A DNA stretch of 41,566 nucleotides from Flavobacteriales bacterium. GTDB lineage: Bacteria; Bacteroidota; Bacteroidia; Flavobacteriales; Flavobacteriaceae. Below are positions 771 through 16,200 of this stretch, in pieces. A program made the translations under genes and the position numbers. Each line of letters begins with the position of its first letter. Position 1 is the stretch's first letter. Below the pieces are notes generated by a model. That model did not search any database. It worked only from the letters and a program-made list of their open reading frames with translations, and was not told the DNA's origin. Location of the stretch: assembly GCA_011525195.1 (NCBI GenBank), contig WTIP01000003.1:1-41566 (forward strand), given 5' to 3'.

Positions 771-1385
771 ATGCGAATCAAGTCTGCCCATTTTGTTATC
801 AGTAATACTGAGGTTGCAAAGTGTCCTCAAAGCACACTACCCGAATATGCTTTTATCGGTCGCTCCAATGTGGGAAAATCCTCACTTATCAATGCCTTAT
901 GCAATAAAAAAAGTCTAGCCAAAACCTCTTCAAGACCTGGTAAAACACAGTTGATTAATCATTTTTTAATCAATGAAAACTGGTACCTGGTGGATCTTCC
1001 AGGTTATGGCTATGCTCGGGTTTCTAAATCTGATAAGAAAGTATTTCAGCATTATATCACTTCTTATTTTCTTAAACGAAAACAACTTATCAGTGCTTTT
1101 TTACTTATTGATATCCGACACGAACCCCAACCCATTGATTTGAAGTTTATGCAATGGTTAGGTGAGCAACAGATTCCTTTTGCCATTATTTTTACTAAAG
1201 CAGATAAATTAAAACCCAAAGCCTTAGAAAAAAATATTGAAACCTATTGTGAAAAACTTCGAGAGCAATGGGAAGCATTACCTCCTCAATTTATTACTTC
1301 AGCACAAAATAAAAGTGGAATTGATGCTGTTCTAGCGTATATAGACACGCTGAATAAAAGCGTGCAGAATCACTTTAAAGATTAA
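771..1385 (+). CDS. engB: ribosome biogenesis GTP-binding protein EngB (YsxC/YihA)
   Basis: A 204-residue Era/TrmE-type small GTPase that acts in assembly of the large ribosomal subunit. The G motifs appear in order: G1 GRSNVGKSS near residue 30, a Thr-containing switch I after SSRPGKTQ, G3 DLPGYG, G4 TKAD, and G5 as SAQ. Length and architecture fit EngB, a single G domain without extra domains. It follows the hydrolase after 6 bp. Its TAA stop overlaps the convergent gldC stop by 4 bp, leaving no room for a separate terminator. Confidence 0.96.
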   Translation: MRIKSAHFVISNTEVAKCPQSTLPEYAFIGRSNVGKSSLINALCNKKSLAKTSSRPGKTQLINHFLINENWYLVDLPGYGYARVSKSDKKVFQHYITSYFLKRKQLISAFLLIDIRHEPQPIDLKFMQWLGEQQIPFAIIFTKADKLKPKALEKNIETYCEKLREQWEALPPQFITSAQNKSGIDAVLAYIDTLNKSVQNHFKD

Positions 1386-1720
1386 GACTTTTTAAGTTCT
1401 AATTTTTCTGCAAAATAAGCACAGAAATCTCGCATTGTTTCGGTCATTTTTTCATCTTGAGTCGCACGGTAATAGGTGTCACTGAGTGAAACAAGGGTTT
1501 GATGAAAAAAAAGCTGCATCTGATCTACGGGCATCTCTTTCACCCACAGGTCCATTTTTAAGGTTTCTTGCGCTTCGGCATCCCAAAAAGACAAAAGCAT
1601 GGCTTTGGTGTCCATTTGAGAGATACCCCCATCTGGTGCTGTCCATTGCATTTGCTCTGGAATATTATTTTCATCAAGATTGACATCTATAGTAATTTGT
1701 GTATTTTTTACAATAGCCAT
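1382..1720 (-). CDS. gldC: gliding motility protein GldC
   Basis: A small soluble protein of 112 residues matching the flavobacterial gliding accessory protein GldC, which in Flavobacterium johnsoniae is encoded beside gldB and improves gliding. The ORF track extends it to 150 residues, but the first 38 codons lie inside gldB in another frame. The real start is the ATG giving MAIVKNTQIT; it overlaps the gldB stop by one base (TAATG), typical of translational coupling. No signal peptide or membrane segment is visible. No enzymatic motif is recognisable. The assignment rests on sequence resemblance and on the gldB-gldC arrangement. Confidence 0.92.
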   Translation of the reverse strand: MAIVKNTQITIDVNLDENNIPEQMQWTAPDGGISQMDTKAMLLSFWDAEAQETLKMDLWVKEMPVDQMQLFFHQTLVSLSDTYYRATQDEKMTETMRDFCAYFAEKLELKKS

Positions 1721-2712
1721 TAGCGTTTGGGTTTGTATTTTGAGAGTTGAAATAATTGTTGAGCAGGCATTCGAAGCAAAGCTTCTAATGGAGTCTCTGG
1801 GTTCTGATTGATATAACTTTTTATAATTTGCCAACCCATCCAGCGACCTACACGCCCTGGAGATTCATTGTCTAATTGCAAATAAAATTTTGAAAAAGGG
1901 GCAGGTTCCAAAAAGCGTTGCACCAATTTTGGGTCTGTCTTGTATAAGAGTTGTTCTTCTATAAAATATTGCCAGATATAGAGCTCATTTTCTTTCACCC
2001 AATTTAATTCTTCCTCTGAATAGGCTATTTTTACGGTCGCTGGTTCATGAGGCAGGAGTAGATCCTGTAAATACATTTTTTTTCCCTCAAATAACATTTG
2101 AGCTAAAAATGTCCGGTCTTCTTCTGGCGGCAAGAGATAATTTGCAAATTTTTCTACAATTTGACTGGTCATGTATTTTTGATCCAATTCTTTACGAATA
2201 TAAGTTGGAATACCCTGGTAAAGCTCATGAGAAGCACCCAGAAAAGTATCTAATGAAATGAGCAATAAACTATCAGAATATACAGTTTTGATTTGATAGT
2301 CTACATTATTAGTAAGTGTCACCACCTGGGGGATTTTAACACTGGGAAAGTGAAATTTAATATGCTGAAAGAGGTGATTTATTTTCGCTTCCATTTCTGA
2401 AGTATCCTCAAAAACATCTCCCACTGCCCTCTGGAGAATGAGCTGAAGGCTGTCTTGTTGCCTGGCTACCCAAACACTATCGGAAAATTGTTTTGGAAAC
2501 AGATAAGGGTAATTCTTTTTTAGTGCGGGAAGTACTTCAGGACCTTGGGCATAAAATTGTAAGTCAAAACGGTCTAATTCTATATCAACTGCCAACGCTT
2601 GGATCGCTAATTCCTTTTCATCTGTGGAATTACACATCACTAAAACAAAGAAAACGACACCAAAGACAAGTTTTTTTTGAAGAATAGTTAAAAATACAGA
2701 ACGTCTTTTCAT
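1720..2712 (-). CDS. gldB: gliding motility lipoprotein GldB
   Basis: A 330-residue exported protein corresponding to GldB, a cell-envelope lipoprotein required for gliding in Flavobacterium johnsoniae. The N-terminus is basic (MKRR), followed by a hydrophobic stretch ending in VLVMC with Cys27, the likely lipidation site. Met at -1 is unusual for a lipobox, where Gly, Ala or Ser is expected. The mature part is acidic and charged, with no enzymatic motif. It is the first gene of a gldB-gldC pair joined by a 1-bp stop/start overlap. It is divergent from nadE, sharing about 67 bp of intergenic DNA. Confidence 0.92.
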   Translation of the reverse strand: MKRRSVFLTILQKKLVFGVVFFVLVMCNSTDEKELAIQALAVDIELDRFDLQFYAQGPEVLPALKKNYPYLFPKQFSDSVWVARQQDSLQLILQRAVGDVFEDTSEMEAKINHLFQHIKFHFPSVKIPQVVTLTNNVDYQIKTVYSDSLLLISLDTFLGASHELYQGIPTYIRKELDQKYMTSQIVEKFANYLLPPEEDRTFLAQMLFEGKKMYLQDLLLPHEPATVKIAYSEEELNWVKENELYIWQYFIEEQLLYKTDPKLVQRFLEPAPFSKFYLQLDNESPGRVGRWMGWQIIKSYINQNPETPLEALLRMPAQQLFQLSKYKPKR

Positions 2713-13082: not shown

Positions 13083-13781
13083 TTATAGAATTTCTCGATC
13101 AGCAAAGCTAAAATACCCTTTTTCTGAAATAATTAGATGGTCCAAAAGCGTAAGCGCTAAATAAGAAGCTGCCTGTTTAAACTGGGCCGTTAGTTGGCGG
13201 TCAGATGCACTTGATGTGAGACTCCCCGAGGGGTGATTGTGAACTAAAATTAAAGCAGTGGCTTCTAATTCAAAAGGGCGCTTTAAAGCCAGACGAATAT
13301 CGACTACTGTGGCGGTGATCCCTCCTTGACTTAAACGAAACTTTTCCAATAGCTTTGAGGATTAATTTAAATAAAGTACCCAAAACTCTTCGTGCGGTAA
13401 TAGCGCTAATTCATAGCGCATATGCTCATAGACAAATTTACTCTGAGTCAATACTATAGGAGCTTTACTTTTTTGCTCAGCCAGACGTTTACTCAGTGCG
13501 AGAGCTGCTTTTATTTTTACGGCCTTAACTTTTCCTATTCCCTTAAATTTGACCAAGTGCTCTAAGGGAAGCTGTTGGAGTTTTTGAAGGTTATTCTCTA
13601 CACTGGCTAAAATGCGCTTCATCAATTCTACCGCGCTTTCTTGTGTTGAACCACTGCCTATAATTATTGCTATCAACTCTGCTTTACTGAGGGTTGCAGC
13701 ACCTTGATGCCACAATTTTTCTCTTTGACGATCAACGAATTCCCAATCTTTTATAGTAAAGGATTTTGGCGGTTTTGACAT
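13083..13781 (-). pseudogene. radC: radC (JAB-domain DNA repair-associated protein) interrupted by one in-frame TAA
   Basis: Two ORFs in the same frame together make a normal-length RadC-like protein of about 231 residues. The upstream part (13362-13781, 139 aa) has the helix-hairpin-helix-like N-terminal domain (LVKFKGIGKVKAVKIKAAL) and ends at PHEEFWVLYLN. The downstream part (13083-13349 in the track, beginning at TTG) holds the JAMM/MPN metal site LVHNHPSGSLTSSASD. Between them the frame reads LN-stop-SSKLLEKFRLS; intact RadC proteins usually have Gln or similar there, and TAA is one C-to-T change from CAA. Nothing else is damaged, so the mutation is recent, a sequencing error, or is read through. 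The stop TAA at 13083 abuts the next gene. Confidence 0.85.
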
Positions 13782-13837: not shown

Positions 13838-15190
13838 TTAAAATCTTTCCTTCAAGTGTTCCCAGTCTATTCTTCCAAAACTCCCTGAACTCATCATGAC
13901 CAGTACTTCGTTTGAAAATTTTCTGCTTAGGAGTACTGAATGAAGTTGGTCTACCTCTGTAATACAAGTCAATGCAGGGTGTTGAAAAGCTTTTTCTATA
14001 AGCAGAGGGGCCAAAGGAGCACGATTTTTTATTTGTAAGGCTTCTGCATCATAAAAAACAATTACCTCGTCTGCATGCGCTAGTGTGTGTGCGTAGTTTT
14101 TAATAAAATATGGGTCTAGACTGCTGTAAGTATGAAGCTCTAAACAAACCGTAAGTTTCTTTTTTTCGAATTGCCTTTTTAGGGCTTGACAACTTGCCTC
14201 TACTTTACTAGGGGCATGGGCAAAATCTTTAAAAAGCAGACTGTCTTCACCCTTGACCATAAGTTCCAACCGCTTTGAAGCCCCTTTAAAGCTGAGTATG
14301 GCTTCATAAAAATCTGTACTGTCAATACCCATAAGCTGAGCGATCCACTGGGCACCAGCAAGGTTTTGAAGGTTGTGCGCTCCAAAAATCTGCAAGGGCA
14401 GATCTCCTTCTTCAGTTACTAGATACGTTATCCCCTCACGAATAAAGTGCTGTGGAGTGTGGTAACCCATTTTTTTAATGGGATGCGGATGGGATTCAAC
14501 TAATTTTTTTAATTCCAAATCTGCTTCATTATAAACTAAAACACCCCCTTGGCGAATCGTGCCAATAAATATTTCAAACTGTAATTTGTAGGTGTCATAA
14601 GTAGGAAAAACATTGACATGATCCCAGGCTATACCACTGATAAGCGCAATTTCTGGCGTATACCATAAAAATTTTGGCTGAGGATCAAGGGCTGAAGAAA
14701 GGTATTCATCACCCTCTAATAACATAAAATCATTCTCTGCTGACAAGTTGAATGTTTTTGCACTATTAGAAAGCGGAGCGCCCACCATAAAATCTGTAGG
14801 TTGGTCGTGATAGTTAAGTGCATGCAGCACCATAGAAGTAATAGTGGTCTTACCGTGACTACCTGCAATTACAACTCTAGTTTTTTTTTGGGTTTGTGCT
14901 GCTATAAACTCAGGATAAGACTGAATGGTTAAATTCAACTCTAAGGCGCGCTTCAACTCTGGATTTTCTTTTTTGGCATGCATCCCCAAAACAATGACCT
15001 CAAGTTGTGAGGTTATTTTTTCAGGAAACCATCCCAAAGCATCAGGTAAAAGTCCTGCTGCTTCTAATTTTGATTTAGAGGGCTCAAATAGGGTGTCATC
15101 GCTACCAGAAACTTCATGTCCCAAGGCTTGCATTTCCAAGGCCAAACTGTGCATCGCACTCCCCCCTATGGCAATAAAATGGATACGCAT
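13838..15190 (-). CDS. mpl: Mur ligase family protein, Mpl-like (UDP-MurNAc:tripeptide ligase)
   Basis: A 450-residue Mur ligase closest to Mpl, which recycles cell-wall peptide by joining L-Ala-gamma-D-Glu-meso-DAP to UDP-MurNAc. The N-terminal Rossmann domain starts [17 protein letters not shown] with SGSDD; the ATP site is AGSHGKTTIT near residue 112; LLEGDEYLSS and WDHVNVFPTYD are the usual central-domain motifs. MurC is the alternative, but Mpl proteins typically have the AMHSLA form rather than GMSG(I/V)A. The ATG overlaps the obgE stop by 1 bp (TAATG), so it is the third gene of adk-obgE-mpl. Confidence 0.85.
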   Translation of the reverse strand: MRIHFIAIGGSAMHSLALEMQALGHEVSGSDDTLFEPSKSKLEAAGLLPDALGWFPEKITSQLEVIVLGMHAKKENPELKRALELNLTIQSYPEFIAAQTQKKTRVVIAGSHGKTTITSMVLHALNYHDQPTDFMVGAPLSNSAKTFNLSAENDFMLLEGDEYLSSALDPQPKFLWYTPEIALISGIAWDHVNVFPTYDTYKLQFEIFIGTIRQGGVLVYNEADLELKKLVESHPHPIKKMGYHTPQHFIREGITYLVTEEGDLPLQIFGAHNLQNLAGAQWIAQLMGIDSTDFYEAILSFKGASKRLELMVKGEDSLLFKDFAHAPSKVEASCQALKRQFEKKKLTVCLELHTYSSLDPYFIKNYAHTLAHADEVIVFYDAEALQIKNRAPLAPLLIEKAFQHPALTCITEVDQLHSVLLSRKFSNEVLVMMSSGSFGRIDWEHLKERF

Positions 15191-16200
15191 TAGCTAATTG
15201 AGGTAGTTAATTCTTTCCACAGCAGGTCTTTTAGGGCGGTCAATTGATATTGGGTCACACTTGAAATTATTACATGCGGAATTGATTGAAAGATATTTTT
15301 CATCTCTTGTTTGTATTCCTCTATAAGTTCTTCATCCAGTAAATCTGCTTTAGATAGTACTACGATATATTTTTTATCAATTAATTCAGGATTGTACTTA
15401 ATTAATTCTTTTCGCAAAATTTCAAATGCTTTTTGAAGATCTGGAGTGTCTGCAGGCAGCAAATAAAGCAAAATAGAATTGCGCTCTATATGCCTTAAAA
15501 AATAATGTCCTAATCCTTTTCCCTCAGCAGCCCCTTCTATAATTCCGGGTATATCCGCCATGACAAAAGATTGATAATCCCGATACTGAACAATGCCTAA
15601 ATTGGGTTTTAAAGTGGTAAATTCATAATCGGCAATTTTAGGCTTTGCTGATGTTAATGCTGCGAGTAATGTAGATTTTCCTGCATTGGGAAACCCAACC
15701 AACCCTACGTCGGCAAGTACTTTAAGTTCTAAAGTTACTGCCAGTTCTCTACCGGCTAATCCGGGTTGGGCATAGCGGGGGGTTTGGCGGGTAGACGATT
15801 TAAAGTGCCAGTTTCCTCTCCCTCCTAGGCCACCTTCCAGGAGTCGTTTTTCTTGTCCTGCCTCTGTTATTTCAAACAAAATTTCATCTGTTGAGGTATT
15901 GCGCACAACAGTCCCTACTGGTACTTCTATATAGAGATCTTCTCCTTGGGCGCCACTACTTCTATTTTTACTGCCATCCCCTCCATGACCTGCAGCAAAA
16001 TGCCTTTTAAATTTAAAATTATAAAGTGTCCAAAGTTGCGGATTTCCTTTTATGATCACGTGTCCTCCGCGGCCGCCATCACCCCCATCAGGGCCCCCTT
16101 TAGTAATAAATTTTTCGCGGTGTAAGTGTACAGAACCTTTGCCTCCTTTACCAGAAGCGACTTGGAGTTTAACATAATCGACAAAGTTCCCCTCTGTCAT
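15190..16200 (-). CDS. obgE: GTPase ObgE/CgtA
   Basis: A 336-residue Obg GTPase involved in late large-subunit ribosome assembly and stress control. The glycine-rich Obg fold covers about 1-160 ([32 protein letters not shown]), followed by the G domain with [23 protein letters not shown] and SKAD. The variable C-terminal extension of some Obg proteins is absent. It begins 3 bp after the adk stop and overlaps the mpl start by 1 bp, forming one operon. Confidence 0.97.

Follow-up and report, generated by a model that had tools for sequence, protein, structure and literature searches.

Probable recent inactivation of radC by a nonsense codon in a Flavobacteriales draft genome, and parallel loss of radC and transformation genes in its genus

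RadC is widespread, and several bacteria induce it along with their competence genes, although laboratory transformation apparently does not need it. The radC gene examined here is interrupted by one in-frame stop codon. The window, i.e. the whole stretch of 41,566 nucleotides analysed, is contig C45 of the draft genome G000 (1.82 Mb, 172 contigs, 85% complete, contamination estimate 1.9%). Translation of the minus strand from 13781 to 13083 affirmed the claim of the sequence-only reading, which named no strand, that a single in-frame TAA splits radC. This codon appears as TTA on the plus strand; around it the translation reads HEEFWVLYLN-stop-SSKLLEKFRLSQGG, and no other internal stop was present. 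The read-through protein aligned with the intact orthologues of the genus along its entire length and ungapped around the stop, so that the two ORFs are parts of a single homologous gene and did not arise by chance. As its coding frame is interrupted at codon 140, it is a broken member of the RadC family. A PF04002 search of this incomplete, fragmented genome detected no second radC copy. A scan of genome contigs yielded relatives of only 35% identity and no close ones, and a plasmid search returned distant RadC proteins of at most 45% identity. The features of the locus are listed in Table 1, together with the gliding-motility genes gldB and gldC, which fit a Bacteroidota host with a reduced genome.

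Table 1. Features of the window and related loci (positions refer to the window).
Feature	Position	Strand	Remark
radC (UPF0758 / RadC)	13083..13781	-	only copy found; one in-frame stop inside
in-frame TAA, codon 140	13362..13364	-	Gln codon in 15/16 intact genus orthologues
N-terminal ORF, 139 aa	13362..13781	-	UPF0758_N/HhH-like part and first 28 JAB residues including JAMM Glu131
C-terminal ORF, 88 aa, from TTG	13083..13349	-	remaining JAB with HNHPSG and Asp194; without catalytic Glu
GAAAAAGGGTATTTTAGCTTT, near radC 3' end	13104..13124	-	lies in the most codon-conserved radC stretch of the genus; persists as relic where radC is lost; candidate cis element for the next gene
DUF7033 protein gene, 429 aa	11793..13082	-	start codon abuts radC stop; intact
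mpl-like Mur ligase, 450 aa	13838..15190	-	upstream neighbour, synteny anchor
obg GTPase	15190..16200	-	synteny anchor and tree marker
gldB	1723..2712	-	gliding motility
gldC	1385..1834	-	gliding motility
decayed radC 3' relic loci	L104, L105, L096, L116, L117, L118		

When read through, the protein matched the Pfam family UPF0758_N at residues 10-88 (87.3 bits, curated cut-off 27.1) and the RadC JAB domain at residues 112-230 (123.4 bits, above the curated cut-off, covering profile positions 2-120 of 121), each nearly from end to end of the profile. The solved RadC homologue PDB 2qlc matched residues 114-231, with the Glu aligned. The JAMM motif has the form E-Xn-H-S/T-H-X7-S-XX-D, in which Glu is the predicted acid-base catalyst and the two His and the Asp bind the metal (PMC300881); in the read-through frame its residues are Glu131, His181-Asn-His183, Ser191 and Asp194. 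The stop is situated 28 residues into the JAB domain, between Glu131 and His181/His183/Asp194. Hence, the clean separation of two domains that had been proposed does not hold: a split at the domain boundary is ruled out, since the break divides the JAB domain. Since Glu131 and the metal ligands would land on different chains, the 139-aa and 88-aa products are predicted to be inactive.

Retention of function would demand either readthrough or suppression of the TAA, or a split RadC formed by both fragments with a restart at TTG 13349. Both fragments are conserved and this TTG follows four codons past the stop. However, TAA is the main stop codon, terminating 20 of the 31 long ORFs in the window, and thus has not been reassigned. 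Moreover, the 15 tRNAs called, an incomplete set from a genome that is 85% complete, included none that reads UAA. Suppression, as suggested by the sequence-only reading, is therefore unlikely. A split RadC is at odds with the position of the break within the JAB fold, with the catalytic Glu on one side and the metal ligands on the other, and with the absence of this arrangement from all relatives compared. Shorter RadC-like JAB proteins do occur in the related genome G038, but their match begins at residue 103 and spans the entire domain, Glu included. We consider it very improbable that this radC is still functional.

Concerning the origin of the stop, 15 of the 16 intact genus orthologues have Gln at the corresponding residue (13 CAA, 2 CAG), and the remaining one has His. 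No stop occurs there in any of them, which excludes an ancestral stop shared with relatives. Judged from these orthologues, Gln is likely the ancestral residue in the genus, and its presence in 15 of 16 makes a single C-to-T transition the simplest origin of the stop, in agreement with the CAA-to-TAA change at a common Gln site that had been postulated.

Neither a further stop nor a frameshift was present in the read-through radC. The ratio of the radC to the core branch length at this tip was 1.23 (0.45-2.56 for intact copies), and private changes at otherwise invariant radC sites amounted to 4 of 73, two in each half; neither measure gave a signal of relaxed selection preceding the stop. The lack of a second lesion and of excess divergence implies that the stop is very recent, and very recent decay was among the options named by the sequence-only reading. 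With 4.8% of point mutations producing a stop, a gene that had taken up 0.1 neutral substitutions per site would have stayed free of another stop with a probability of 0.036. In core proteins the tip branch measures about 0.3 amino-acid changes per site, and this comparison likewise argues for a young stop. An old pseudogene, to be recognized by relatives with the same TAA plus further damage, is not what the genus displays: no relative shares the TAA, and independent lesions or deletions are found instead.

A single lesion without relaxed divergence is also what a sequencing or consensus error would leave, or a minority assembly allele from a living population with intact radC, and both the intact dprA of this genome and the draft state of the assembly with its contamination estimate are compatible with such an error. 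However, of the 32 other readable slots of the genus, 16 hold a broken radC or have lost the gene, which sets a high prior for a real lesion, and none of the other window genes examined is visibly split. A substitution error should only rarely introduce a stop into any one gene. Because radC lesions are frequent in the genus, a real lesion is the better bet, and we regard an error as unlikely. Altogether, with a probability of about 0.75, a real and very recent nonsense mutation inactivates the sole radC found in this genome and constitutes one of approximately six independent losses in the genus.

These losses were traced at a conserved slot, as the gene order adk-obg-mpl-[radC]-[DUF7033]-HAD is maintained across the genus. 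In 33 genus genomes with a readable slot, one genome per species, radC was intact in 16, interrupted by a nonsense codon in one (this genome), frameshifted in one (G005) and deleted or reduced to a relic in 15. Six of the latter (G004, G008, G009, G002, G035, G006) retain a short decayed 3' relic, while nine have no clear remnant. Genome incompleteness is ruled out as the cause of a missing radC where the slot between mpl and DUF7033 or HAD was sequenced and empty. The G005 copy (L034 / L103, G005:C2) is otherwise full-length; its frameshift, around codon 166 and close to a GGGGG run, is a second independent lesion, although it may also reflect a homopolymer error. Dollo reconstruction on a four-protein maximum likelihood (ML) tree gave six losses (five to seven in bootstrap trees), four of them complete-loss events, and placed this genome as a separate loss event in the ML tree and in every bootstrap tree. 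In three radC-less genomes, mpl itself is disrupted by stops and frameshifts (L116 in G035, L117 in G002, L118 in G009).

Codon-level conservation of radC in the genus reached the gene maximum of 0.73 in the last codons, compared to an expectation of 0.52 at this position and a maximum of 0.71 in 200 shuffles, and in three independent radC-less lineages the 3' relic is located directly upstream of DUF7033. In other families the codons of this stretch are not fixed. A genome-wide repeat does not account for the conservation, as the genome contains no second exact copy of GAAAAAGGGTATTTTAGCTTT, and near matches to it stay at control level. The radC 3' end may thus act as a candidate cis element, promoter or leader, of the DUF7033 gene, and a genuine element of this kind would shape the mode of radC deletion. 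The DUF7033 gene is itself patchy in the genus (found in 22 of 38 genomes) and was lost independently of radC.

Complete loss of radC coincided with the absence of transformation genes. dprA was present in 16/16 radC-intact and 0/15 radC-deleted genomes (Fisher 3e-9, a value that ignores relatedness and reflects four complete-loss events only), comEC in 10/16 and 0/15, and comM in 11/16 and 0/15. By comparison, recA and ruvB were each detected in 16/16 radC-intact and 12/15 radC-deleted genomes; the recA, ruvB and comM queries were E. coli K-12 proteins joined into one. Restriction to genomes of at least 85% completeness gave 12/12 versus 0/8 for dprA and 12/12 versus 8/8 for ruvB, with recA in 7/8 of the radC-deleted genomes. 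Hence, radC is co-distributed with dprA, comEC and comM beyond the general recombination genes, although through four complete-loss events only. In this genome, dprA is intact (335-aa ORF) and comM is at least partly present at a contig end, whereas comEC was not found in the 85% complete draft. The presence of dprA and part of comM implies that radC broke with these genes still in place, which weighs against the explanation put forward here. In five genomes dprA looks frame-broken, through frameshifts or stops that differ in position (G003:C20, G012:C14, G030:C29, G034:C55, G005:C205), and four of these keep an intact radC. The transformation gene set therefore seems to be eroding in several lineages.

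The main rival to a functional co-loss is general genome erosion, which would remove radC and the transformation genes from whole lineages with no functional link between them. In favour of erosion, long branches are frequent in radC-lost lineages, and mpl is broken in three of them. On the other hand, recA and ruvB are kept in most deleted genomes, and the eroding neighbour DUF7033 is not associated with radC, being found in 9/16 radC-intact and 12/15 radC-deleted genomes, i.e. in the opposite direction. Furthermore, the complete losses of radC and of dprA fall on the same four stems, for which the branch-length-weighted chance is about 4e-6. We therefore rate general erosion as a serious possibility at clearly less than even odds. 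A similar distribution was observed at the level of the order: among 117 other genomes, evenly drawn, dprA was present in 73 of 76 with radC and in 11 of 41 without it. Accordingly, few genomes carry radC without dprA. The reverse combination is seen chiefly in one family (f11), where it is frequent, and this too weighs against the explanation.

The function of RadC is disputed, and a role in nucleic-acid processing has been proposed (PMC5512222, PMC11981726). radC belongs to the core of the streptococcal SigX competence regulon (PMC5069739), is among the competence homologues listed for Flavobacteriaceae (PMC7965970), and is present in competence regulons of other competent bacteria cited in PMC6237807. 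Nevertheless, S. pneumoniae, H. influenzae and V. cholerae apparently do not need radC in order to be transformed (PMC6237807). In Enterococcus faecalis a prophage inserts into radC, as reported in a survey of mobile elements hitting competence genes (PMC4774983). The co-loss described here is in line with the regulon data and suggests that RadC has a role in transformation which escapes the standard laboratory assay. If the RadC product acts on incoming or recombining DNA within the transformation pathway, abandonment of natural transformation would release radC from selection. We tentatively propose, at somewhat under even odds, that in this bacterial branch RadC acts as an accessory dedicated to natural transformation, maintained only for as long as DNA uptake and DprA-dependent integration persist and discarded along with them. 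Should this be true, the parallel losses in the genus would provide strong comparative evidence on the disputed function of RadC. Taken by itself, the stop makes an ordinary recent pseudogene, whereas the parallel co-loss is an interesting and modestly surprising lead: about six drops of radC, the complete ones in step with dprA, comEC and comM and mostly not with recA and ruvB, represent a natural experiment linking RadC to transformation, and they indicate which taxa and assays to choose.

In comparison with known systems, the interrupted gene shares with RadC proteins of the 2qlc type (UPF0758, PF20582 and PF04002) the two-part architecture, the E..HNH..S..D residues and an ungapped orthologue alignment, but it is stopped at codon 140 and a protein of normal length is not expected. 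As in RadC-like JAB proteins of mobile elements (PMC5512222), its C-terminal fragment places JAB sequence apart from the usual UPF0758_N partner; the short JAB forms of G038, however, are complete domains with the Glu, which the 88-aa fragment does not contain. With early-stage bacterial pseudogenes it has in common one lesion, normal divergence, a single copy found and repeated loss in relatives, and it is distinctive among them solely by the co-loss with transformation genes. In competence regulons such as that of streptococcal SigX (PMC5069739), radC is joined to dprA and comEC by co-regulation, whereas here it is joined to them, and to comM as well, by co-loss. The evidence from this genus is thus evolutionary in nature and stands against an apparent laboratory dispensability of radC in three species (PMC6237807).
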